Shown here: positions 481 to 42,205 of the stretch, piece after piece
Layout of the letters: the number at the start of each line of letters is the position of its first letter
Position numbering within the stretch: position 1 is the stretch's first letter
DNA from: a virus
Length of the DNA stretch: 42,205 nucleotides
Strand: one strand, 5' to 3'
Virus record (IMG/VR): IMGVR_UViG_3300029923_000043
Location: 1 to 42,205 of that record
Position numbers and translations under genes: made by a program
The notes under the pieces: generated by a model
The model's database searches: none
Told to the model about the DNA's origin: nothing
Seen by the model: the letters and a program-made list of their open reading frames with translations, nothing else

Positions 481-2739
481 TTACACTCTTTTGATTTCAC
501 AAGCCCCACCAGAACAGGCTTGGGCGGCATAATCAGATACATCTTTAAATGCTGGTTTATTAAGTATCTTATTAAAATCAACCTCGCGCATTTGTCGGTT
601 AATAACCTCCCATTTATGAATTAGGTGAATATCTTTTAAACAATATACCATTTTCTTTAGATCTCCTTTAAAATAGTTTTTAGCAAACTTCTTTGCGCAG
701 CTTAACCAATATTTTTTAAGAAGTACTTCTTCCCTTGTTCCTGTTACTAATAAATCTCTATCAAGGACGCTATCACAAGCAAGCCATAAATTATTTTTAA
801 AGTAATGTAACCCATCTACAATTAACCCAGATGCAAATAAAGAACCTTTACCATATAGAGAAATAATTTCTTCCATAGTATTTACCGTTGTAAAAGGGGC
901 TTGATTAAATTCTCTATCGGCTGTATTTGATATAAATGATACAGCCGTAAAAGCCTTTTTATTATCCCAAATATAATCAATTACTTCTTCAATATTATCA
1001 ATAATAACAGTGCAGCTTACGTTGTGATTAATGTGTGGATATCCACATAGTTCTGGGTTAGTACCGTAAGTTACCCAATTTTCTTGAACTAATTTGATTT
1101 TCTCAAGATGTGCTAAACCAGTCATGTCTTTTTTGTAAAAACCATCTTTTGAATTTTCTATTGGTATAAAAACAACATAATCCGAATTAGTATCAGACCA
1201 CGCCGATTCTTCTAATAAGAAAGGCATATTTTCATTCAACCATTTAGCGGTTTCAGCTTCTTTATTTAGTTGCATTAACCTGAAATATGATTGAGCGTGT
1301 TCTGGGTGAATGCCAGAGGATGTACCTAAAATAACACTACTATTACCACTTGGTTTACAACAAGTTAGCCTTGCAGCTGGGTTAATACCAATTAGTTTTG
1401 CTACTTCTACATTGGTCTTTCTTATGATATCAACTCCTTTTTGTAATAATTCAGCGTTGAATAATTTTGGATTATTCATCCAGCCTGTAATTGACACCCC
1501 CAATAAAGATTCTTTTTGAAATATTTTTTCACTTGTTTCACCTAAATATGAAAACGATGTAAAACCAGCTTGAATTGTTCCCAAAATAGTTGCATCAGCA
1601 CAGGCTTTAAAGAACTTTTCTTTTGTAGTACAAGCTTCGGCTGAAATTTCTGTTAGATTACAACCTTGTATACCTAATAAATGGCTGTTATTTTTAATGA
1701 AATCACCTAATTCTTCGTACTTAATATTTTCTAAGTCCATCGTATCATTCCATAATATTGGAAGTTGTGCAATCTCAAAACAAGGATTAAACATATCAAA
1801 ATATGAATTTGCAAAAACAAAACCAATATCCGAAACACCATCGTTCATTTTGATAATTTCTTCGAATTGAGCTTTTCCAACTTTATCTCTTTTTAATAGA
1901 ATAGAGTTATTGGACCTTGCCCTCTGTGGGTTAGTTTCAAACCAATTCCCCATTTTTGCATTGATCATCTCATCATCATTTTCATCAATAATCATATCCA
2001 TTGCTGATCGCCTAACACCACCACTAAGAACAGCGTTTGATGCAAAACAAAGTATGTCGAATGCTAAAATAGGTCTAACAACATTACCTTCTTTAGATAA
2101 CCAATTTTCAATTAAATTTTCAATTTGTTCTAATGATTTTTTTAATGCTTCAGAACCAGGAGCTTTAAACCCTCCACTAATGAAAGCACCTTTTTTTCTT
2201 ATTTTTGAATAATCGAATTTAATTTCATACCCATAATATTCTGGGAATGGTTGGTTATCTTTGAAATACGAAGACATTAAAACACCAAGAGAATCTGACC
2301 ACCCCTCTATTGAGTCTGGAATAATAAATGTTTTTGTTCCATTATTTCTTTTCTCAATATTAGATATATTTTGAACGAATGGTATTAATAATCCGCCACC
2401 GAACCCACACCCACTAAGTAGTAAATAAAATACCTCTTGGAAAATCTTATTGTAAGCTACATAGCCAGTCGTGCAGTTGTATAATCTACTATTATGTTTC
2501 TCTAATTGTTCACCGCGATATTGTAGGCTTCGTTGTGATGCTAATACCAATTTGTCCTTCATGCTTTGAACAGCTGAGTCAGTATACGGTTTTATCTTAT
2601 CCCCATATTTTTTTAAATGGGTTTCAATAATTGAATCACAAGCCTCTTCCCACGTTTCATATCGACCTAAATCTTCTCTCCATTTCAAGTAATCCGAATG
2701 TAATTTTAAATCCGATAGAAATTTTTTACCTTTTTGCAT
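481..2739 (-). CDS. nrdJ: adenosylcobalamin-dependent ribonucleoside-triphosphate reductase (class II, monomeric)
   Basis: This enzyme reduces ribonucleotides to deoxyribonucleotides in the cytoplasm, supplying phage DNA synthesis with a cobalamin-generated radical. The NPCFEI motif gives Asn318, the probable radical Cys320 and Glu322. An early Cys89 in YNCTTGY fits the active-site disulfide partner. The CKPSGNSS segment followed by GTSSGIHPEHAQSYFR is typical of the monomeric RTPR type, and the C-terminal tail has CSGGAC (Cys742/Cys747), the redox relay pair. The 752-residue length fits the Lactobacillus leichmannii type. The stop of the upstream helicase gene lies 16 bases before the start, so they share an operon, and a terminator follows (421-468). 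No NrdA/NrdB pair is visible in the window. Family assignment is strong; preference for triphosphates is inferred from the subclass. Confidence 0.92.
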   Translation of the reverse strand: MQKGKKFLSDLKLHSDYLKWREDLGRYETWEEACDSIIETHLKKYGDKIKPYTDSAVQSMKDKLVLASQRSLQYRGEQLEKHNSRLYNCTTGYVAYNKIFQEVFYLLLSGCGFGGGLLIPFVQNISNIEKRNNGTKTFIIPDSIEGWSDSLGVLMSSYFKDNQPFPEYYGYEIKFDYSKIRKKGAFISGGFKAPGSEALKKSLEQIENLIENWLSKEGNVVRPILAFDILCFASNAVLSGGVRRSAMDMIIDENDDEMINAKMGNWFETNPQRARSNNSILLKRDKVGKAQFEEIIKMNDGVSDIGFVFANSYFDMFNPCFEIAQLPILWNDTMDLENIKYEELGDFIKNNSHLLGIQGCNLTEISAEACTTKEKFFKACADATILGTIQAGFTSFSYLGETSEKIFQKESLLGVSITGWMNNPKLFNAELLQKGVDIIRKTNVEVAKLIGINPAARLTCCKPSGNSSVILGTSSGIHPEHAQSYFRLMQLNKEAETAKWLNENMPFLLEESAWSDTNSDYVVFIPIENSKDGFYKKDMTGLAHLEKIKLVQENWVTYGTNPELCGYPHINHNVSCTVIIDNIEEVIDYIWDNKKAFTAVSFISNTADREFNQAPFTTVNTMEEIISLYGKGSLFASGLIVDGLHYFKNNLWLACDSVLDRDLLVTGTREEVLLKKYWLSCAKKFAKNYFKGDLKKMVYCLKDIHLIHKWEVINRQMREVDFNKILNKPAFKDVSDYAAQACSGGACEIKRV

Positions 2740-2755
2740 TTTATTTATTTTGTTT

Positions 2756-5275
2756 TTAATTGTTTTGTTCTTCTTTTTCTTTTTTCGCCAATTCTCTTCT
2801 TAATCTTGCGGCTTCCAAAATATCTTTTGTTTTTTCTTGCTTTTTCTCAGCTTCAGAACTATTATAATCTGTCATTCCCTCAAACATTTGGATATTATCA
2901 GTGTTTATCTCACAAGTACCATTATTAAATGAAGCACCTTCCATTACTCTACCAGATTTACCAGATCTATTTTTCAATACAGCAATCGTTGCAATATTAT
3001 TTTCCATATCTTCCATTGAACGGGCAATTGATATTACAATGTGAGCAATTTGAATTTTTTTGAAACTACCACCAGCTTTATCCATTGTCACAATTTCAGC
3101 ATTTAATGAATCTTTCGTTCCTTGGGTTGGAACCCATAAGGCAATATCTAAATCTGATGCTATTGCTTCTAATTGACGCATTGTATGACCCTCTCCTGTC
3201 CACTGGTCCTTGAAATTCTTTGAAGCTACCAAACATTCGAAATAATCCACTATAACCATATCTGGATTAAAACCAGTATTGATAAGTCTCTTAATATATG
3301 TCCTGATTTGAACTGGATTAACTTCCCCTGTATTAAATTTTTTAATTACAAGATTTTCATCGAAAGCATCCGTGTAAGACATAATATCTTTAACCATTTC
3401 AATATTTTCTGGTTTTGATAAATCTCTTGCCTCGACACCCGTAATCTTCCCAATATGTTTTCGTTGAATTTGTTTTTCCTTATCCTCAAAAATTATTTGA
3501 AGTACTTTAAAATTGTTTAAAGCGGCATGATTTGCAAAACTTGTTGTTAATGAGGTATTATGTGTAACAATAAAATCTCGCGTTAAATATAATCCATCTT
3601 CACTTTCCAGCATAATACATTTGGACTCTTCTTGTCTAACTAACTCAACCGACTCAATAAATCTAAGTGTTTTCTTACTTGTTCTATAATTAACTCTATC
3701 TTGTTTTCTTTTTAAATTAAATATTGGGATAGTTGTATCTATTAATGTAATTGTTACTTCATAATGAATACCACAATCTACTCCAATATTATATTTTTTA
3801 TTAAAATAAGAAGCATTTTTTTCTCTAACAATTGCAAATCCACCTAAAGATAATACAAGTGTTTTAACATCTTCGGCTAATTGTTTTGATTTTGTATTAT
3901 AACAAGAACAACCATTTTTTTGACAAGTTCCATCGGTATCCATAAGACCATTTAATAATTCTATCCGATTTTCAATTGAATTATATAAATAATCGTTTGG
4001 TATAAACTTATCTTCACTTTTTTCTTCTAATGTAAAATATTTATATAATTGTTCTTTTAGTAAATAAGATAATTGAATTTTGGTAATATGTGGGTCTCTT
4101 GTTGAATTATTTAATGAAACTACATTTGTTATTTTACAAATTTTATCAATTATTTCTTGGTCAACAGATGTGATGTCCATTCTTGAAAAACAGCCATCTC
4201 CAATAAATGCCCCTATAAAATAAGGTGGTAATGTTTCTGGTATATCTATTGTGTTAAACTGAACCGCTTCTGGCATTGGAACTTTAAAGTTATGTCTTTT
4301 AGGGTGTCCAGCATAGTTTTTAAATAACCCTTTTTCTAAAATTTGTTTCAATGATAATGTTTGATATGTGTGATCTGGTATATAATATTTATCATCACGA
4401 CTTTTACTAACACCACTAACGTATTTTTTACCACACCTTTGATATACTGAATTAACATTCCATAAATGATCTATACCGCATTCTACTGAAACTTTATCAG
4501 AAAAAGTAACTTTATATACGTCTTTAACTCCCTGTGGAAAGGTATTAATTACTTTGACTGGTTTTCCATTTCCACCAATAACAAAATCACCTACTTCAAT
4601 TGAACCCATAGTTCTAAATCCATCTGGAGTACACACTAACTCGCTGATTGGTTGCTCTTTACCAAAAGATGAAGGTCCTATTATAACACCTAATTCACCT
4701 CGCCCAAGCCCACCTTCAAGCGCATCGTCAACGCCTTTAACTCCAGTTGGTACGACTTTTCTATAATCTTCTGAAAGTACTTCACCTAAGTTGTCTCTAA
4801 GGTGAATACCTATTTCTTCTCTGTTGCCAGTCGCTAATGCATTTCTAATTAATTCTTCTAATTCATCATATTTATCAATATCACCATCGCTAATAAATTT
4901 ACCCATTTGATTATAAACTTTGGCCATATTTTGTTGTTTGAAAAATTTATGGGCCTTTGTTTTAATTGAATCAGCACCTTCACAGGTTGTGTTTTTAATC
5001 TTTTTAACAATTTCAACCACAAATTCAATATCCTGATCACTATTTGTTGTTGAACGTAATTCTATTTCTGCCTGTTCATAAGATGGAACATAATCATTTA
5101 TATCGAAAAAATTTTTAAGCGTTCCCATGAACCGTCTAACATTTACATCTGTGAACATATTTGTATCAACCATATCAGAAACATCTCTAAAAAATTTCTT
5201 ATCATCCATAAAATGATGAGCCAATCTATACTGAAATTCTGTGCCTAAATAACCTAAATCGTCTCTCTTTGCCAT
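2756..5275 (-). CDS. replicative DNA helicase (DnaB / T4 gp41-like) interrupted by an in-frame intein
   Basis: This is a hexameric 5'-3' helicase that unwinds DNA at the phage replication fork. The 839-residue precursor consists of an N-extein (1-206), an intein (207-573) and a C-extein (574-839). Joining the exteins restores a Walker A motif, GPSSFGK plus TSLTT, and leaves a helicase of 472 residues, the usual gp41/DnaB size. The C-extein has the Walker B stretch MVIVDYFECL, WVPTQGTKDSL, and an arginine-rich C-terminal core (AVLKNRSGKSGR) as in the RecA-fold DnaB family. The C-terminus is Lys/Glu-rich. The gene is followed 16 bases later by nrdJ. A 13-bp hairpin (5311-5343) lies in the gap upstream. 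The start follows ATAAATAAAAAATGG, the A-rich leader type seen throughout. The assignment is firm; excision of the intein is inferred. Confidence 0.92.
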   Translation of the reverse strand: MAKRDDLGYLGTEFQYRLAHHFMDDKKFFRDVSDMVDTNMFTDVNVRRFMGTLKNFFDINDYVPSYEQAEIELRSTTNSDQDIEFVVEIVKKIKNTTCEGADSIKTKAHKFFKQQNMAKVYNQMGKFISDGDIDKYDELEELIRNALATGNREEIGIHLRDNLGEVLSEDYRKVVPTGVKGVDDALEGGLGRGELGVIIGPSSFGKEQPISELVCTPDGFRTMGSIEVGDFVIGGNGKPVKVINTFPQGVKDVYKVTFSDKVSVECGIDHLWNVNSVYQRCGKKYVSGVSKSRDDKYYIPDHTYQTLSLKQILEKGLFKNYAGHPKRHNFKVPMPEAVQFNTIDIPETLPPYFIGAFIGDGCFSRMDITSVDQEIIDKICKITNVVSLNNSTRDPHITKIQLSYLLKEQLYKYFTLEEKSEDKFIPNDYLYNSIENRIELLNGLMDTDGTCQKNGCSCYNTKSKQLAEDVKTLVLSLGGFAIVREKNASYFNKKYNIGVDCGIHYEVTITLIDTTIPIFNLKRKQDRVNYRTSKKTLRFIESVELVRQEESKCIMLESEDGLYLTRDFIVTHNTSLTTSFANHAALNNFKVLQIIFEDKEKQIQRKHIGKITGVEARDLSKPENIEMVKDIMSYTDAFDENLVIKKFNTGEVNPVQIRTYIKRLINTGFNPDMVIVDYFECLVASKNFKDQWTGEGHTMRQLEAIASDLDIALWVPTQGTKDSLNAEIVTMDKAGGSFKKIQIAHIVISIARSMEDMENNIATIAVLKNRSGKSGRVMEGASFNNGTCEINTDNIQMFEGMTDYNSSEAEKKQEKTKDILEAARLRRELAKKEKEEQNN
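3557..4657 (-). other. intein with LAGLIDADG homing endonuclease, class 3 type, at the helicase P-loop
   Basis: This is a 367-residue protein insertion placed between GK and T of Walker A (helicase residues 207-573). It shows HINT splicing blocks and two LAGLIDADG motifs (FIGDGCF near helicase residue 356 and LNGLMDTDG near 440). It begins with Glu (EQPISELVCTPDG), not Cys, Ser or Ala, so the normal first nucleophile is absent. Instead it has the three residues that define class 3 inteins: Trp66 after His64 in block B (GIDHLW), Cys347 in block F (SKCIML) and Thr365 before the terminal His-Asn (FIVTHN). The +1 extein residue is Thr. Known class 3 inteins splice through the block F Cys. Splicing activity here is inferred, and the endonuclease looks intact. 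Confidence 0.88.
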
Positions 5276-32738: not shown

Positions 32739-35429
32739 TTAAAAACTTATTATCCACCCTTTGGTGTTATGTAACTCGTAATCGGTTTCTATCATCTCTA
32801 CAGATCCAGGATTACCTATAAATTCCAATCTGTTAGGGTAGTCCACATTAGTATTATTTCCTACACTTGCCGTAACCTGTGCAATGATGCTTTCAATTTC
32901 GACCTTAGAAAGCAAGTTGTTTTGCAATCTTAAAGCCGTTAAAGAGCTACATCCTGCTACATCCACCGAAGTAAGTAAATTACTTCTAAAATCAGCAACA
33001 ACTAATTGATTTAATCCACTTAAATCCTGCGTTACTAACTGATTACTCGAAGCAGTAAGATATTGAATAGTCGAATTTGGCTTCTCTAAAGTAGTTAGTA
33101 AATTGAAATCTAAATAAAGCTCTCTAAGGGATGATAATCCGACAAGTGAGAAATCAGTAAGATTATTATTATTAGCGTAAATTTGAGTAAGCAGAGCTGA
33201 GTCAGATAAATCTAAACTAGTTATCTTATTGAATTTACAAACTAGCTGAGATAGTTTAATACATCCACTTAATAGTAGGGATGATATATTCCCATAATCG
33301 CAAAACAGAGTAATTAATTTAGTACATCTATTTGCATTTAAATAAGTAAAATCCTTTAGATTAATAAGTTTCAATGATTCTACATCCGTATTACTTACAT
33401 CCATAGTTTTTAATCCTTTCGAATTATCGACCGATACCTCGGTAATTGCGTTATTCGCAACGTTTAAAGTTTCCAGTTCTTTTAATTCAGATAAATTTAA
33501 AGAGCCTGAAATTCCGAGTGTTTTTGAGTTTACGTCTAATATATTAGGGGTCGCAACAGAACCCTCCTCAAGCTTATACCAATTTAGAGTATTACTTCCT
33601 GAGATGACAAAATCATCTAAATTATAAACCCCTGTTGTCGGAACGCTAACTGCTATTGTTTTAATAGTATCAACAATCTCTGTTCTATAGCTTATATTCA
33701 GTGAGAATGTCCAATCGTTATTATGAAGATATATATCTACACTTGAACCTATGTTGGATAACTTCAAATTAACACTAAGCGTGTAAGTTTTTCCAGCTAT
33801 CAGATTTATAATTCTTGATGCATTAGTAGTTGAATCGCCACTGAATGTTTGATTTATTAAACTATTTGGAACCAAATTCTCTCCTACTGGATATCCTACC
33901 GCCAAACTTTTTGCACTCTTTGGAATACTCAACATCGTACCACCAACCAAAACCTCAGGACTAACTTCTAATCCATATTTAACCGCTCCATCAATAGTTT
34001 TAAATCCAATCGTTTTATCGGCAACAACTTTAAACGGTACAGTATTCTCTGAAATAGAAATCCCGCCTATAATTGTAGGGTTCACAACAGGAAAATTCAG
34101 GAAATCAACATTTGAAAGTTTATCCTCAATCATCCGTTTTGCAACAGGAGAATTTGGAAGCAAATCTTCGTATTGTAATTCGCTTGCAAGTCCTCTGTTT
34201 CCCTCTAAATCATCAGCAAGCATATCACGATAGGCTTGTGATTTATAATTCTCATTTATATACGCAATTGCAGCATCTACATCAATAATCCCGAAACCCA
34301 TGTACTGATTCCAATGGTAGGTATATATCTTTTTATCATCTATTACAGCCATTGTAGTTGTGCTCGCAGTCTTTCTACATGCTAATCTAACTATTGACCA
34401 ATTACAGCCTGTCAAGTCTTTAATCTTTTTCATTTTAGCACCCACTACAGCAGTTGTAGGGCTTTGTTGATTTAATTTCTCATAAAATTCACATCCATAT
34501 CCATGAGTAGAGTTCCATTGAGTAGGGGCTTGTTCTAAGGTAGTTCCTTCCTCTTTACATGCACTAACTAATACTAAGTTATCAAAGAAAAATTCAGGCC
34601 TGTAATTCTCACTTAAATCAGTATCAGGGACAAACCCGTTATTTTTTCTCGCTCCAACTGTTTCACCATTGTACAGATTTCCACCATGTGCACCAACGGT
34701 AAAAAGATTGGCATTAGAACCAGGATTTTCACTATACGAAGCTCCTGTATATGGACGTAAAATAAGCTCACATCCTGTTTTAGTTGCGAGTGTTGGAGTA
34801 AAGTTTGGTGCTACTCCTCCATAATTAGTAAGAACATTTTGTTCGGATTGAATCCTTACTCCTTTAAATTCAGGATATACTGTATCCCACCATGCATGCA
34901 GTGTCCAGTTTGAGTGTGCCGTATCTACAATACTGTTATGGTCTGAAATAACACCATTTCCTAAAACCTGTTTAGTTCCGTCGTACTTGGGATTGGTGTC
35001 ATTATTTGTTTTTATGTTGTACGATAAAGTTGCAATGTCCCAATCATTTGTTTCAGAAAGTAATCCGTCAGAATCTTTAAGCAAAAAACCCACATAAGGT
35101 TGTCCGTTCCATGTTTCAGCTGATGGATAATTAATTACAGGCTCAAGGGTTTTAGTTCCAGTAATAGAATTAACCCTGAGCGTTACATCTGTTACTTCTT
35201 TTCCTGTATTTAATTGTGAAGTATGTGATATCTGAATCCATCCATTTTTATAAACTGTATTTACTTTACGGAGTGTGAGATTGAATTCCGTTACAATAGT
35301 CGTGATTATACCTGGGTGTACGGGGTCAGGACCTACGTGTTTAGGTTCATAAGCGTTCAGCTCATCTCTTTTAACAAGAGATTTGCCATCAATCAGATCA
35401 TCCTCGATATTTATAATTGCTTGTTCCAT
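32739..35429 (-). CDS. large virion protein with subtilase-like domain and C-terminal leucine-rich repeats
   Basis: An 896-residue protein. Residues about 150-420 show a subtilase-like order: NLFTVGAHGGNL (oxyanion Asn-like), FFDNLVLVSACKEEG, TQWNSTHGYGCEFYE, then QQSPTTAVVGAKMKKIKDLT, equivalent to the GTSMAxPxVAG serine helix, and YMGFGIIDVDAAIAYI. The Asp and His of the triad are not clear, so activity is uncertain. Residues about 530-630 form a beta-sandwich-like module. From about 633 to 860, at least eight leucine-rich repeats of 20-22 residues (LKELETLNVANNAITEVSVD type) form a binding arc. It starts two bases from the pentapeptide fibre gene. A receptor-binding or processing fibre/adhesin is inferred. 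Confidence 0.72.
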   Translation of the reverse strand: MEQAIINIEDDLIDGKSLVKRDELNAYEPKHVGPDPVHPGIITTIVTEFNLTLRKVNTVYKNGWIQISHTSQLNTGKEVTDVTLRVNSITGTKTLEPVINYPSAETWNGQPYVGFLLKDSDGLLSETNDWDIATLSYNIKTNNDTNPKYDGTKQVLGNGVISDHNSIVDTAHSNWTLHAWWDTVYPEFKGVRIQSEQNVLTNYGGVAPNFTPTLATKTGCELILRPYTGASYSENPGSNANLFTVGAHGGNLYNGETVGARKNNGFVPDTDLSENYRPEFFFDNLVLVSACKEEGTTLEQAPTQWNSTHGYGCEFYEKLNQQSPTTAVVGAKMKKIKDLTGCNWSIVRLACRKTASTTTMAVIDDKKIYTYHWNQYMGFGIIDVDAAIAYINENYKSQAYRDMLADDLEGNRGLASELQYEDLLPNSPVAKRMIEDKLSNVDFLNFPVVNPTIIGGISISENTVPFKVVADKTIGFKTIDGAVKYGLEVSPEVLVGGTMLSIPKSAKSLAVGYPVGENLVPNSLINQTFSGDSTTNASRIINLIAGKTYTLSVNLKLSNIGSSVDIYLHNNDWTFSLNISYRTEIVDTIKTIAVSVPTTGVYNLDDFVISGSNTLNWYKLEEGSVATPNILDVNSKTLGISGSLNLSELKELETLNVANNAITEVSVDNSKGLKTMDVSNTDVESLKLINLKDFTYLNANRCTKLITLFCDYGNISSLLLSGCIKLSQLVCKFNKITSLDLSDSALLTQIYANNNNLTDFSLVGLSSLRELYLDFNLLTTLEKPNSTIQYLTASSNQLVTQDLSGLNQLVVADFRSNLLTSVDVAGCSSLTALRLQNNLLSKVEIESIIAQVTASVGNNTNVDYPNRLEFIGNPGSVEMIETDYELHNTKGWIISF

Positions 35430-37593: not shown

Positions 37594-39510
37594 ATGTCAA
37601 AATTATCAATTAAGAATAATAAATTAGCACTTGATATATTAGAATCATATTCTGATTCAAACCCTTATATCAAAATGATAAAAAATTCAGTTTTAATAAA
37701 AAAAACACAGGTAGCTAGCGATTTTGAATTAAATTATATTTTGAAAAACTACGAGTTTCAATCAATTGAAATTAATAAAATTGTAAAAATAACGGAAGAG
37801 TTTGGTGAAAAAAAAGCTGCCGACTGGAAATATGACCACAAAGTAAATAAATTACAAGTGGTAACCTTACTGGGAGAAACGGATAATCATTATCATTGTA
37901 ATGTTAATTACAAACATAATCAGGTGAAGCCGATTATGTGCTTTATACCTAAGAAAGATTTATTGGATGATTTGTTTATTGAAGATTTTGAAAAATTAGA
38001 AGTTGATTTCAGTGAATTTAATAAAGTACTTGCATTGGAAGATAAGGAACTTTATGAGCACCAAAAAACAGCAGTAAAATTTTTAAGATCAAGAAAACGA
38101 TGTATTTTAGCCGACGATATGGGTTTGGGAAAAAGCTTAAGTAGTATAGTAGCCTCAATATCAGGTGATTTTAAAAAAGTTTTAATTATATGCCCAGCGT
38201 CTTTAAAAGGAGTTAGAGGATGGCAAAAACAATTACAAACGTTTATTTCAGAAGATGATATTTGTGTTATTGATGGTGATAATTGGATTTCAAATAAAAG
38301 ATATACAATTATTAATTATGATATTATTGATAGGCATCATATAGTACCAAAAGAAAATGGTAAAATTTCAAGGAAAAAAACCATTGTTGATATAGCATTA
38401 GCTAAGAGTAATTTTTTAAAAGAAAATTTTGATTTAGTAATCATAGATGAAGTACATAAAATATCAAAGGATACTTCTATTAGATATGAATCAATATATG
38501 ATTATTTAAAACGAAGTAATTTAGAGAATATTTGGTTATTAACTGGAACTATTATAACAAAATCTCCAATTAACTATATGAATATTCTAAAACTTATTTT
38601 TCATCCAGTTACAGACCAATGGCAATCATTTATTGAGAGATATTGTGATGGACATCAAATTTGTAGAAAAGGAGAAAAAGAGCGTCTCACAAATATGTTT
38701 TTAGATTCTAAAAGAAAAAATAGTTGGTTTGATCTTACATTTAAGGAAAAAGATGATTTAGTTGATTATATTGATAAATATGCAAAAAAACTATGGATAA
38801 CTTCTGGTAATTCAAATTTGAAAGAATTATTTGAAAAAACAAAAAATGTATATTTAAGAAGATTAAAAGATATGATCCCAGGAATGATGGGGAAGGAAAT
38901 TCACGAAGTTTATTATGATTTATCACCAGAACAAGAAATTGAATATTCACAACTATGGAATGAATATGAAACAAGTCAGAGAGAGTTAGGTAAAACTGAA
39001 TTCAATCAAGATTTGACTGAGGGTATTTTAATGCGAATGGCTATCTCACGATATATGATTGAAAATACTAAAAAATTAGCAGATTCATTCATTTTAAAAG
39101 GAGAGAAGGTGTTAATTGCCTGTGCATTTAATGATGAAATTTTTGAATTACAAAAATATTTCGGAAAAAAATGTGTGATATATAAAGGAGGTATGACACA
39201 AAAGAAAAAGGATGAAGCAGAACGAAAGTTTATGGAAGACCCTGAAATAATGGTCTTTTTAGGAAATATAGAATCTGCGGGTGTCGGACTGACATTAATT
39301 TCCAGTCATATATGTCTTTTCAACTCATACTCGTGGATTCCAGCTAATAATTCTCAGATACAAGATAGAGTCGTGAGGATTGGTCAAAAGCATTTATGTC
39401 ATATTTATTATCAATTATTTAGAAATACAATATCTGAAGATATGTGGGAAAATGTAATAAAAAAAGAAATAGTAATTAATACAATTGTAAAAAAAGAAGA
39501 AGATAAATAA
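37594..39510 (+). CDS. SNF2/DEAH-type DNA helicase (superfamily 2)
   Basis: An ATP-dependent DNA translocase, possibly a T4 UvsW-like recombination/replication-restart helicase. Motif I is DDMGLGKS (about residues 173-180), motif II DEVH (about 285-288, DEAH type), motif III LTGTI, motif V AGVGLTLISS, motif VI DRVVRIGQ (about 591-598). The Q-motif-like YEHQKTAVKFL lies just upstream of motif I. The 638-residue protein has about 150 extra N-terminal residues. It is transcribed rightward from its own promoter, opposite to the structural block. The structured segment and intein-like endonuclease follow on the same strand. Family assignment is firm; a specific role is inferred. Confidence 0.9.
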   Translation: MSKLSIKNNKLALDILESYSDSNPYIKMIKNSVLIKKTQVASDFELNYILKNYEFQSIEINKIVKITEEFGEKKAADWKYDHKVNKLQVVTLLGETDNHYHCNVNYKHNQVKPIMCFIPKKDLLDDLFIEDFEKLEVDFSEFNKVLALEDKELYEHQKTAVKFLRSRKRCILADDMGLGKSLSSIVASISGDFKKVLIICPASLKGVRGWQKQLQTFISEDDICVIDGDNWISNKRYTIINYDIIDRHHIVPKENGKISRKKTIVDIALAKSNFLKENFDLVIIDEVHKISKDTSIRYESIYDYLKRSNLENIWLLTGTIITKSPINYMNILKLIFHPVTDQWQSFIERYCDGHQICRKGEKERLTNMFLDSKRKNSWFDLTFKEKDDLVDYIDKYAKKLWITSGNSNLKELFEKTKNVYLRRLKDMIPGMMGKEIHEVYYDLSPEQEIEYSQLWNEYETSQRELGKTEFNQDLTEGILMRMAISRYMIENTKKLADSFILKGEKVLIACAFNDEIFELQKYFGKKCVIYKGGMTQKKKDEAERKFMEDPEIMVFLGNIESAGVGLTLISSHICLFNSYSWIPANNSQIQDRVVRIGQKHLCHIYYQLFRNTISEDMWENVIKKEIVINTIVKKEEDK

Positions 39511-39540
39511 AAATTTATTGAAAATAATTAAGTAGAATTG

Positions 39541-39665
39541 GTGAAAAAATAAATATTCACACTATTTATTAATAAACCCAACTACTACTTGGTTATAGAA
39601 ATATAGGAATCTGGTTTAGATATTTAATGAAAGGTAGTAGCTTCATTATTATTCTGGACCAGATT
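39541..39665 (+). ncRNA. structured non-coding segment between helicase and homing endonuclease
   Basis: Several pairings stand out. GTGAA (39541-39545) pairs with TTCAC (39556-39560). CTACTACTT (39582-39590) pairs with AGGTAGTAG (39632-39640, one G-T pair). Inside this, TATA-GAAA-TATA (39594-39605) is a GNRA-capped hairpin, and ATCT (39609-39612) pairs with AGAT (39618-39621). AATCTGG (39608-39614) can instead pair with CCAGATT (39659-39665), which is followed by a T run, giving two alternative folds. It contains no ORF. A regulatory RNA or remnant of an intron-like element is possible; the type was not recognised. Confidence 0.45.
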
Positions 39666-39705
39666 TTTTTGTACGAAAAAATAAAGAGTTAAAAAGAACT
39701 TAAAA

Positions 39706-40842
39706 ATGGAGTTTATTGAAAATAAATTATTTACATTAAATGGAAGAAAAAGAATTGGTGATGTTAATATTGGTGATAAAATAGTTGGTAATAATGGTAG
39801 TTATTGTAACGTAATGGAAGTACATTCAGAAACGAACGTAGAACTTTTTAAAATAACTTTTAATGATGGTTATTCATTAATTGTTGACGGAGAACATTTG
39901 TGTACATTGTATTCAAGTAATAGTGGAGAAAATCATACAAATAGAAAAAATAAAATTTTTTTATTAACCACAAAACAAATGTTGGATAAAGATTTAATAT
40001 TAAAACAGAAGCAACAAAATGGTAATTCTAAAATTAGGGAGTATGAATTTGGTACTTATTTTAAACATAAAGATAAATCCCCAAGATGGCAGATACCGAT
40101 TGTAAAACCAATAGGTTTTAATAATTTTAATAATTTACCTATAGAACCATATTTATTGGGTTTAGGACTTGGAGATGGCCATTTTTCACATAATCAAATA
40201 AAATTTGCTGTCCATAAAGATGATTACGATGAACTATTTGAAGATATAACTATTAATGAACTAAAAACAAATGTTAAGAGACCTAATATTAGATTTGGCG
40301 CTATTTCGGACACGGAAATAAAACTTACTGGAATAGGGTTAAACGAACACAGGTCATGGGATAAATTTATCCCTGATATTTATAAATATTCAAGTATTGA
40401 AAATAGAATCTCAATGCTTCAAGGGTTAATGGACACGGATGGTTATTGTGTTATTAGTCATCGAAAAAATGGGTCGTTTGGCGGTACAGAATATTCAACA
40501 GTATCAGAACAATTAGCTAACGATGTTGCTGAAATTGTGCATAGCTTAGGTGGAATAGTTAGAATGAAATCAAAAATAGGTTCATATACCAAAGATGGAG
40601 TTAAACATTTATGTAGAAGAGCTTACCGTTTAAACATTAAAATGCCAGCTGGAATAAACCCTTTTAGAATAAAAAGAAAAGCTGATATTTATTATACTCC
40701 TGAAAAATATAAAGTTGGCAGATATATTAAAAATATAGAATCAGTCGGATTCGGAGATGTAGTTGGTATTTTAACTGATAGTCCAGATAATTCATATATT
40801 ACTGAATATGGAATATTAACACATGATATTCAAAATAAATAA
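39706..40842 (+). CDS. free-standing intein-like homing endonuclease (HINT fold plus LAGLIDADG), splicing residues lost
   Basis: A 378-residue protein shaped like an intein without exteins. It begins KLFTLNGRKRIGDVNIGDKI and has block B-like VDGEHLCTLY, two LAGLIDADG motifs (LLGLGLGDG near 148-158 and LQGLMDTDG near 238-246), and ends GILTHDIQNK. It resembles the helicase intein throughout (SIENRI, GLMDTDG, SLGG). The key splicing residues have changed: Trp of block B is Cys, the block F Cys is Val, and the terminal Asn is Asp, so it should not splice. DNA cleavage for its own spread is inferred from the endonuclease motifs. It lies downstream of the SNF2 helicase and structured segment and is followed by a terminator (40841-40886). 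Confidence 0.85.
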   Translation: MEFIENKLFTLNGRKRIGDVNIGDKIVGNNGSYCNVMEVHSETNVELFKITFNDGYSLIVDGEHLCTLYSSNSGENHTNRKNKIFLLTTKQMLDKDLILKQKQQNGNSKIREYEFGTYFKHKDKSPRWQIPIVKPIGFNNFNNLPIEPYLLGLGLGDGHFSHNQIKFAVHKDDYDELFEDITINELKTNVKRPNIRFGAISDTEIKLTGIGLNEHRSWDKFIPDIYKYSSIENRISMLQGLMDTDGYCVISHRKNGSFGGTEYSTVSEQLANDVAEIVHSLGGIVRMKSKIGSYTKDGVKHLCRRAYRLNIKMPAGINPFRIKRKADIYYTPEKYKVGRYIKNIESVGFGDVVGILTDSPDNSYITEYGILTHDIQNK

Positions 40843-40886
40843 AAATGGCTACCGAAAATTTTAGATTTCAGTAGCCATTTTTTTAA
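40841..40886. terminator. bidirectional intrinsic terminator
   Basis: AAAAATGGCTAC (40841-40852) pairs with GTAGCCATTTTT (40871-40882), followed by more T rightward; leftward it ends in TTTTT. It ends both the homing endonuclease transcript and the leftward zinc-finger gene at 40883-40990. Confidence 0.9.
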
Positions 40887-40990
40887 TATGTTATTAATTT
40901 AAAATTATTATCATAACATGTTTTACAATAGTGGTTATAATTAACTGTAGTTACAACATTCGTTGATGTACATAAACAACATTTAACCAT
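40883..40990 (-). CDS. tiny zinc-finger protein, 35 aa
   Basis: A 35-codon ORF, MVKCCLCTSTNVVTTVNYNH followed by YCKTCYDNNF. Two CxxC pairs (CCLC and CKTC) with a nearby His form a zinc-ribbon pattern. The ATG lies one base past the stop of the preceding gene (40992-41405), so it is translationally coupled, and a terminator follows. Small zinc-binding proteins are common in large phages; this one's partner is unknown. Confidence 0.65.
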   Translation of the reverse strand: MVKCCLCTSTNVVTTVNYNHYCKTCYDNNFKLITY

Positions 40991-40991
40991 A

Positions 40992-41405
40992 TTATTTATA
41001 TTCTGAATTTAAAGATGCGGGTTTTAAATATTCTGGTTTTCCATCAAACTTAAAAAAAACATACGTTCCATTATTATAAGCAAAAAATTCAATTCTACCC
41101 CCGTATAAACTTTTTAAATGGCGCATATGAGCACTCATTTTAATGGGATCTTTTCCTGGATAAAATTCTACGTTCGGCACACGTCCCATAGATTTCCATT
41201 GCTGCCTTTTTTCTGGACTTGCATAACCCATATCGACTATGTTTAAATCATTAGTCTGTGGTACGGAATTTATACTACTTTCTCCACCAGAATGATTTCC
41301 TAAACTACCTGGCCTTATATCATGATAATTATTATTATATTCTTTCAATAATGCTTCTTTTATCATATTCCGTAAAACACTTTCTTTAACTTTTATTTTT
41401 GTCAT
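40992..41405 (-). CDS. hypothetical protein, 137 aa (start at 41405)
   Basis: The frame can be extended upstream to 41453, but MTKIKVKESVLRNMIKEALL from 41405 is the likely start. That helical K-I-x-x-S-x-L-R-x-x-I-K-E pattern is a common N-terminus in virion-associated proteins of large phages, and the longer form would run through a separate zinc-ribbon gene (41416-41526). The middle is Gly/Ser/Asn-rich. The second half (QQWKSMGRVPNVEFYPGKDP; HMRHLKSLYGGRIEFFAYNN) appears beta-rich. No family was recognised. It is followed one base later by a tiny zinc-finger gene. Confidence 0.7.
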   Translation of the reverse strand: MTKIKVKESVLRNMIKEALLKEYNNNYHDIRPGSLGNHSGGESSINSVPQTNDLNIVDMGYASPEKRQQWKSMGRVPNVEFYPGKDPIKMSAHMRHLKSLYGGRIEFFAYNNGTYVFFKFDGKPEYLKPASLNSEYK

Positions 41406-41415
41406 ATTAACGTTT

Positions 41416-41526
41416 TTAAAAATTATTACAATTAGGACAGTATGGGAGTCCATCTTTCCATATTAAATTATCAGGAGTCCTATTTTTACCCTGACCACAA
41501 CTACATATTACATCGTTACAATTCAT
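41416..41526 (-). CDS. tiny zinc-ribbon protein, 36 aa
   Basis: A 36-codon ORF, MNCNDVICSCGQGKNRTPDN followed by LIWKDGLPYCPNCNNF. Cysteines at 8 and 10 (CSC) and a terminal CPNC pair form a zinc-ribbon pattern. It overlaps the disfavoured upstream extension of the 137-aa gene and lies between similar small genes. The short length lowers certainty, but the cysteine spacing is hard to explain by chance. Confidence 0.6.
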   Translation of the reverse strand: MNCNDVICSCGQGKNRTPDNLIWKDGLPYCPNCNNF

Positions 41527-41554
41527 ATAATTTTAAATAAATAGAGTTTTTAGG

Positions 41555-41647
41555 TTATTTTTCATCGCAAAATTTCGAATAATCGATAACTAAATATATT
41601 ATTATACCAATAATAACTAAAACACCTAAAAGAATATCTAAAAACAT
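41555..41647 (-). CDS. tiny membrane protein, 30 aa
   Basis: A 30-codon ORF, MFLDILLGVLVIIGIIIYLV then IDYSKFCDEK: a single membrane helix with a short charged cytoplasmic-type end. It lies 28 bases before the zinc-ribbon gene on the same strand. Small size means coding status is uncertain; the helix followed by polar residues is typical of real phage micro-proteins. Confidence 0.5.
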   Translation of the reverse strand: MFLDILLGVLVIIGIIIYLVIDYSKFCDEK

Positions 41648-41747
41648 AAGTTAATTTATTTAATGTTGGTTATTTCATTCACTAAAATAAAAAATCGGTC
41701 ATAATGTATGATATATCATTCAAAAACACCATATTTGTACCATTATA

Positions 41748-41897
41748 TTAAACGTTATCAGAATTACCATTACTTTTATTAACCAATTTATCTACAATAT
41801 ATTTTTGACAATCCTGGCAATATCTATATTTACCAATACGTTTAGTTTCAATTATATCAAAATCTCTCAAACAACCAGCACATTGTATTTTAAACAT
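41748..41897 (-). CDS. small zinc-finger protein, 49 aa
   Basis: A 49-codon ORF, MFKIQCAGCLRDFDIIETKR IGKYRYCQDCQ-type sequence, with two CxxC pairs (CAGC and CQDC) 17 residues apart, forming a zinc ribbon, and a short polar tail. It is the first gene after the tRNA terminator on the minus strand. DNA, RNA or protein binding is possible. Confidence 0.7.
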   Translation of the reverse strand: MFKIQCAGCLRDFDIIETKRIGKYRYCQDCQKYIVDKLVNKSNGNSDNV

Positions 41898-41940
41898 ATA
41901 TTCACATTTTTTTTAATTGGTTATTTAGAGTATTTTATAA

Positions 41941-41973
41941 AAAAATCCTGTCAATATAAATACTAACAGGATT
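41941..41973 (-). terminator. intrinsic terminator after the tRNA genes
   Basis: AATCCTGT (41944-41951) pairs with ACAGGATT (41966-41973). Read leftward it is followed by a T run at 41941-41945 and further T. It lies about 70 bases past the tRNA-His gene and so probably ends the tRNA transcript. Confidence 0.75.
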
Positions 41974-42044
41974 AAAAAAACATTTGTTTTTTGAAATTTT
42001 ATTTTGAGATATTGTACAAAAAGTTAATTTAATTTTATTACATG

Positions 42045-42117
42045 GGTGTTGCAGGGACTCGAACCCTATTCTCCAGAATCACAAACTAGCGTACTACTCC
42101 AATTGTACTAACAACAC
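42045..42117 (-). tRNA. tRNA-His (anticodon GTG)
   Basis: Read on the minus strand: acceptor GTGTTGT against GCAACAC, D-stem GTAC/GTAC, anticodon loop TTGTGAT (anticodon GTG, A37), T-loop TTCGAGT with GGG/CCC stem, discriminator C73, as expected for tRNA-His. CCA is not encoded. Oddities: a T-T opposition closes the anticodon loop, the base before G1 is T rather than the usual G-1, and the acceptor/T-stem junction looks one base short. It lies two bases from tRNA-Tyr. It may be functional or beginning to decay. Confidence 0.8.
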
Positions 42118-42119
42118 AG

Positions 42120-42202
42120 TGCCCACAGAAGGATTTGAACCTCCGAACTCGTAAGAGAGCTGATTTACAGTCAGCCGCGTTTGACCACTTCGCTATGTAG
42201 GC
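42120..42202 (-). tRNA. tRNA-Tyr (anticodon GTA)
   Basis: Read on the minus strand: acceptor GCCTACA against TGTGGGC, anticodon arm GCTGA-CTGTAAA-TCAGC with anticodon GTA, a long variable arm (class II, as for Tyr), T-loop TTCAAAT with GGAGG/CCTTC-type stem, discriminator A. CCA is not encoded. The structure is complete and probably functional. Confidence 0.95.
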
Positions 42203-42205
42203 ATA

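Follow-up and report, generated by a model that had tools for sequence, protein, structure and literature searches.

A probable class 3 intein with a LAGLIDADG endonuclease in a phage DnaB-like replicative helicase and a candidate splice-dead, free-standing relative in the same genome

Class 3 inteins are defined by a Trp at position B:12, a Cys at position F:4 and a Thr at position G:5, together designated the WCT set, and by the lack of the N-terminal nucleophile of class 1 inteins (PMC3196547, PMC5050341). A described example is the class 3 intein in the DnaB helicase of mycobacteriophage Bethlehem, which carries the WCT set and has no class 1 nucleophile (Tori et al. 2010, cited in PMC3196547). 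Insertion between the invariant Lys and the Thr of the P-loop is the classic location of P-loop inteins (PMC5050341). Intein-derived endonucleases also occur outside of an interrupted protein, and in the yeast WHO/HO family such an endonuclease lies beside an intact host gene (PMC7282813).

Here we analysed the viral IMG/VR record IMGVR_UViG_3300029923_000043 from position 1 to 42,205; this whole stretch of 42,205 nucleotides is referred to as the window. Its minus strand harbors a continuous reading frame of 839 aa (2756..5275, read from 5275 to 2756) for an intein-containing precursor of a DnaB-like replicative helicase, as documented by orthologues and by the matches of its exteins to the Pfam domain DnaB_C (1.5e-10) and to phrog_19, the DnaB-like replicative helicase (9.7e-47). 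The N-extein (206 aa; 4658..5275, minus strand) ends in GVIIGPSSFGK, the first part of Walker A, and the C-extein (266 aa; 2759..3556, minus strand) begins with the Walker A Thr as its +1 residue (TSLTTSF...). Between GPSSFGK and TSLTT, i.e. between the Lys and the Thr of Walker A, lies an insert of 367 aa or 1101 nt (Glu1 to Asn367; 3557..4657, minus strand). Joining of the exteins generates an intact Walker A, as in the empty orthologues, and the predicted spliced helicase has the 472 aa (206 + 266) that an earlier note on this DNA had proposed. All other numbers of this note were confirmed as well, namely the length and the Walker A position of the insert, Glu1, His64 and Trp66, Cys347, and the terminal Thr365, His366 and Asn367.

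The sequence environment of the site delimits the insert precisely. With the C-extein as query, 31 helicase loci were retrieved from viral contigs, and the 27 loci that span the junction were tabulated. An intein is present in ten of them and missing from the other 17, always at one common codon boundary; the intein-free homologues in related phages that the earlier note had proposed to look for thus exist, and they are empty at the exact codon. In the nearest empty allele (L027), whose exteins are 91% identical to those of the window, the sequence GPSSFGK|TSLTTSF reads through without a gap, and both ends of the intein are therefore fixed by comparison rather than by motif. The insertion is precise, in frame and absent from orthologues, as expected of an intein of any class.

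The splicing residues of the insert occupy class 3 positions. A His at B:10 and a Trp at B:12 lead to the expectation of a His-x-Trp motif, and His64-Leu65-Trp66 in block B (4460..4468, minus strand) fits. Cys347 is located at position 4 of block F (3617..3619, minus strand), and Thr365-His366-Asn367 (3557..3565, minus strand) represent block G with the Thr of the WCT set, the penultimate His and the cyclising Asn. Among 100 non-redundant full-length phage homologues of the helicase intein, His64, Thr365 and His366 are present in all 100, Cys347 and Asn367 in 98 each and Trp66 in 97. The full Trp/Cys/Thr set is found in 97 homologues, and the three departures are a single in-frame intein with Phe in place of Trp (L064) and two copies of a free-standing protein from the window that is described below; the latter two are the only homologues without a Cys at the position of Cys347. 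This retention across homologues shows that the WCT residues do not occupy their positions by chance. At +1, where the window has Thr, 85 of the homologues have Thr as well and 12 have Ser. In L064 (2389-3444) block B reads His-Leu-Phe, and the F:4 Cys and the THN terminus are kept.

Comparisons with solved structures point in the same direction. A sequence-only search of the PDB returned the class 3 inteins MchDnaB1 (6rix/6riy) and M. smegmatis DnaB (6bs8) and the WCT-re-engineered gp41-1 (6riz). In the alignment with MchDnaB1, Trp66 corresponds to B:12 and Cys347 to the catalytic F:4 Cys, and Cys347 and THN pair with their MchDnaB1 equivalents, the score of this C-terminal piece alone being not significant. 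An AlphaFold2 model of the intein, based on 24 aligned sequences, has a mean pLDDT of 89.4 and a pTM of 0.87; with Foldseek, the whole model retrieves the intein-endonuclease PI-SceI, and its Hint part retrieves MchDnaB1, MsmDnaBi1 and gp41-1. The uninterrupted orthologues, the class 3 matches in the PDB and the 729 phage records whose alignment covers 80% or more of the intein (see below) argue that the insert is not a chance pattern. The class 3 assignment of the earlier note thus withstands the alignment with class 3 inteins, as judged by Trp66, Cys347, Thr365-His366-Asn367, a Thr at +1 and the lack of a class 1 nucleophile. We conclude with high confidence that a class 3 intein equipped with a LAGLIDADG homing endonuclease occupies the classic P-loop site in the DnaB-like replicative helicase of this phage.

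The endonuclease domain (PF14528, LAGLIDADG_3, 2.3e-08) contains both LAGLIDADG motifs in intact form, as the earlier note had stated. The predicted catalytic acids are Asp154 in motif 1 (IGAFIGDG; 4196..4198, minus strand), an Asp in 95 of the 100 homologues, and Asp242 in motif 2 (LNGLMDTDG; 3932..3934, minus strand), conserved in 97; the conserved endonuclease-domain lysine Lys217 in KFIP (4007..4009, minus strand) is present in 98. The note had taken the intact endonuclease as a sign that the element is still mobile. Regarding the site as such, this idea is substantiated by the relatives. The inteins of L043, L047 and L053 are 89-95% identical to each other, whereas the exteins of L043 are only 66-68% identical to those of the other two loci. 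For L043 and L053, the intein DNA is 95.1% identical and the extein DNA 70.6%, and their exteins are placed in different clades of the extein tree. Judged by these identities and branching patterns, horizontal transfer into the same helicase site is evident in L043 and L053. The states found at this site comprise a full endonuclease, an Asp to Asn motif mutant (L047), mini-inteins of 221 aa (L044) and 261 aa (L040) and empty alleles, a range that fits what a homing cycle would be expected to give.

For the window copy itself the motifs are intact and there is no direct sign of transfer. The extein tree places it beside an intein-free allele with a support of 100/100, the intein-bearing tips being scattered, and the empty sister thus implies either a gain in the window or a loss in the sister since their split. 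In comparison with the next intein (L029), the intein is 64% and the exteins are 72% identical, which would fit vertical descent or an old transfer. A co-conversion tract was considered as a mark that the window intein had arrived recently, since identity to L027 is lowest in the 22 codons 3' of the site (59%, compared with 84% overall); it was rejected, because this stretch is among the lowest in all pairs.

An intein that splices without homing, with an inactive endonuclease and vertical inheritance, would account for the nearly equal divergence of intein and exteins between the window and L029 and is reminiscent of the broken or deleted endonucleases in relatives at the same site. We consider this alternative rather unlikely, given that Asp154, Lys217 and Asp242 are intact, that the structural model of the endonuclease is of high confidence and that the sister allele is devoid of the intein. 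If the intein homes, its endonuclease, with Asp154 and Asp242 as catalytic residues, would cleave helicase alleles without an intein at their GK|T codons during co-infection, and the allele would receive a copy of the intein in the course of repair.

The first residue of the intein bears on the chemistry of splicing. Residue 1 is Ala in 57, Ser in 15, Glu in 14, Val and Asp in three each and Cys in two of the 100 homologues, the remainder having other residues; at the helicase site itself Glu, Ala, Ser or Val are found. Against this background, Glu1 of the helicase intein is not unusual. Tori and Perler (2011) are said to have described WCT inteins that begin with Ser, so that the missing N-terminal nucleophile would be usual rather than absolute. 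A natural experiment is provided by L043 and L053, whose inteins are 95% identical in both DNA and protein and toggle between Ala1 (L043) and Ser1 (L053) with a constant block F Cys. Because Ala and Ser alternate freely in such closely related inteins and the F:4 Cys does not vary in any in-frame intein compared, residue 1 is unlikely to be an essential nucleophile, which supports, without proving, the role of Cys347 as the initiating one. Three further inteins (L019:2272-3348, L020 and L135) combine the full WCT set with Cys1, and in these the class 1 and class 3 nucleophiles could both exist.

From the conserved residues we infer the following order of steps. Cys347, aided by His64, Trp66 and Thr365, would attack the peptide bond between Lys and Glu1 and form a block F branched intermediate, from which the acyl group would move to the hydroxyl of the +1 Thr. 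Cyclisation of Asn367, aided by His366, would release the intein, and an O-to-N shift would finally restore GK-T in the 472-aa helicase. Alternatively, the element might belong to class 1 or class 2 and have its first residue substituted, with a direct attack on the N-terminal junction by the +1 or another residue and a Cys347 that is present only incidentally; Glu would be permitted as first residue in class 2 inteins, which have no Ser or Cys at this position, and an F:4 Cys is present in some class 1 inteins too (PMC3196547). We regard this as very improbable in the light of the complete and aligned WCT set that is nearly invariant in the 100 homologues, the free variation of residue 1 next to a fixed F:4 Cys and the best PDB matches of the Hint part, which are class 3 inteins, the WCT-engineered gp41-1 or its gp41-1 parent; moreover, class 2 inteins had been known only from KlbA (PMC3196547). 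That the helicase intein is a decayed, non-splicing element comparable to the class 3 pseudogene of Arthrobacter (Arth_1007) is hardly credible, since all its catalytic positions are intact and the Walker A of the replicative helicase would remain broken without splicing, even if a decayed relative in the same genome indicates that decay occurs in this lineage. The class 3 reading therefore stands, and the helicase intein adds a well-bounded case to this class, in which one locus offers both natural empty sites and a series of decay stages.

When the record was searched with the helicase intein, a second match emerged at 39727..40827 on the plus strand, within an ORF (39706..40842, plus strand) that is absent from the earlier note. 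The ORF encodes a free-standing, class 3 intein-like protein of 378 aa with a series of losses predicted to make it splice-dead, namely the replacement of the B:12 Trp by Cys, of the F:4 Cys by Gly and of the terminal Asn by Asp (THN to THD). Its C-terminus reads THD-IQNK-stop and extends four residues past THD. The LAGLIDADG nuclease motifs are kept (GLGLGDG and GLMDTDG), and this combination of lost splicing residues and retained nuclease residues is what would be expected of a WHO-like element. A good structural model comprises Hint and endonuclease parts, and its best fold match is PI-SceI. A second contig contains the gene with two nucleotide differences and a 147-kb contig an identical copy, showing that it did not arise by misassembly of a single record.

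The closest relatives of the free-standing protein are inteins (L057-L063; 49-54% identical) with an intact WCT set, which reside in SNF2-type helicases at DDMGVGK|T. The tree groups the free-standing protein with these SNF2 inteins (100/100), and its Met1 aligns with their residue 1 (MEFIENKLFT versus LEFVDNRVFT). The ORF is located 195 bp downstream of an SNF2-type helicase gene (638 aa; 37594..39510, plus strand), the homologue of the gene that is interrupted in L057-L061; its Walker A is uninterrupted (DDMGLGK|S at 38133/38134), and the protein shares about 31% identity with the exteins of L057-L061. A promoter motif of the Bacteroidota type is located upstream of this helicase gene. Of the positions that do not vary among five relatives, the free-standing protein has changes at 19 of 51 in its Hint parts and at 21 of 122 in its endonuclease part (Fisher p = 0.006). 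In a control with each of the five relatives compared to the other four, the pooled counts are 19 of 274 (Hint) versus 46 of 656 (endonuclease) and show no excess; single cases go both ways, with an excess in the Hint part of L061 and the reverse in L058 and L014.

The best explanation for the ORF at 39706..40842 is descent from an SNF2 class 3 intein that became stand-alone and splice-dead and whose Hint part is less constrained. A more specific scenario, which we advance tentatively and hold to be possible rather than probable, is that of a homing endonuclease with its start codon on the former residue 1, a lost Hint active site and a retained nuclease. It would continue to recognise SNF2 genes at their GK|T/S codons and reside just downstream of the phage's own SNF2 gene, uninterrupted, diverged and presumably immune, and would parallel in a phage what the WHO/HO route represents in yeast. 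As part of the same tentative scenario, the phage may house two class 3 intein descendants in different states, i.e. a spliceable intein in the helicase and a stand-alone, splice-dead one. To our knowledge, the step from intein to stand-alone homing endonuclease is known mainly from yeast HO/WHO, and the protein, if active, would provide a phage example.

Several searches bear on this scenario. SNF2 orthologues with a matching empty or filled site were sought in viral contigs, and only the same species was returned; a search for other free-standing copies returned only in-frame inteins, its DNA pattern requiring an intact block G or a block B-side motif and thus being biased against decayed copies. 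A duplicated 3' fragment of the host gene, as in WHO elements, was looked for in 39511..42205, where no convincing SNF2-like sequence was found. GenBank records annotated as "homing endonuclease" or "hint domain protein" were considered as candidates for further free-standing proteins and proved to be ordinary WCT inteins in larger ORFs.

Matches to the helicase intein are present in 773 phage GenBank records, 729 of which contain one place that covers at least 80% of the intein, and all seven records that were opened, among them those of the Bacteroides and Parabacteroides phages named below, harbor WCT inteins inside larger ORFs. Two sequence features of the window support a Bacteroidota host, which we infer from promoter motifs and scarce Shine-Dalgarno signals. 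The pattern TTG-N17-23-TAnnTTTG occurs upstream of six of the 33 ORFs, those starting at 363, 9018, 11226, 17108, 27151 and 37594, compared with 0.23 expected from mononucleotide shuffles, and only one of the 33 ORFs has a Shine-Dalgarno-like stretch. Neither a relative of the C-extein in cellular genome contigs nor a close named phage was found. The window furthermore encodes a ribonucleotide reductase (481..2739, minus strand; phrog_367, 1.4e-69), whose best phage match is Pseudaeromonas phage KLEP7 (45%), and, close to the tail sheath gene, an 896-aa protein with leucine-rich repeats near the C-terminus (32739..35429, minus strand).

A comparison with described systems places the helicase intein in a familiar context. 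By its description, the Bethlehem intein resides in the same type of host protein and agrees in its WCT set and its missing class 1 nucleophile, and the Bethlehem phage belongs to a different phage group. MchDnaB1 (6rix/6riy) and MsmDnaBi1 (6bs8) align with the window intein in their Hint fold and in the His, Trp, Cys and Thr positions, but their solved chains are mini-inteins of 139-146 aa, whereas the window intein has 367 aa and an endonuclease. Bacteroides phages DAC15 (Crassvirales) and BS-TP3 and Parabacteroides phage PF672P1 carry WCT inteins that follow the GK of a P-loop-like sequence, as in the window, but their host proteins are different ones and their identity to the window intein is only 32-33%. 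The suggestion of the earlier note that the helicase intein deserves documentation as a class 3 element of a Bacteroidota phage is accordingly weakened, since GenBank already contains phages of Bacteroides and Parabacteroides with WCT inteins. PI-SceI, the VMA1 intein, is the top whole-molecule fold match with its Hint domain and two-motif LAGLIDADG endonuclease, but it is not of class 3, and where the two align they are about 16% identical. By these comparisons the helicase intein is of a well-documented type and not new in kind.

The helicase intein itself is low in novelty, and the ORF at 39706..40842 is the part worth following. Less ordinary is that one phage combines a helicase intein with a putatively splice-dead relative that retains its DNA-cutting motifs, beside the type of gene that its relatives invade. 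The free-standing protein differs from WHO/HO in that it has no C-terminal extension able to hold a zinc finger and in that its relatives are class 3 inteins. Like the yeast WHO elements and HO (PMC7282813), it is a stand-alone, intein-derived LAGLIDADG protein that seems to have lost splicing, and like the WHO elements it is located downstream of a host-type gene that was left intact; the yeast WHO/HO family represents its nearest published analogy.
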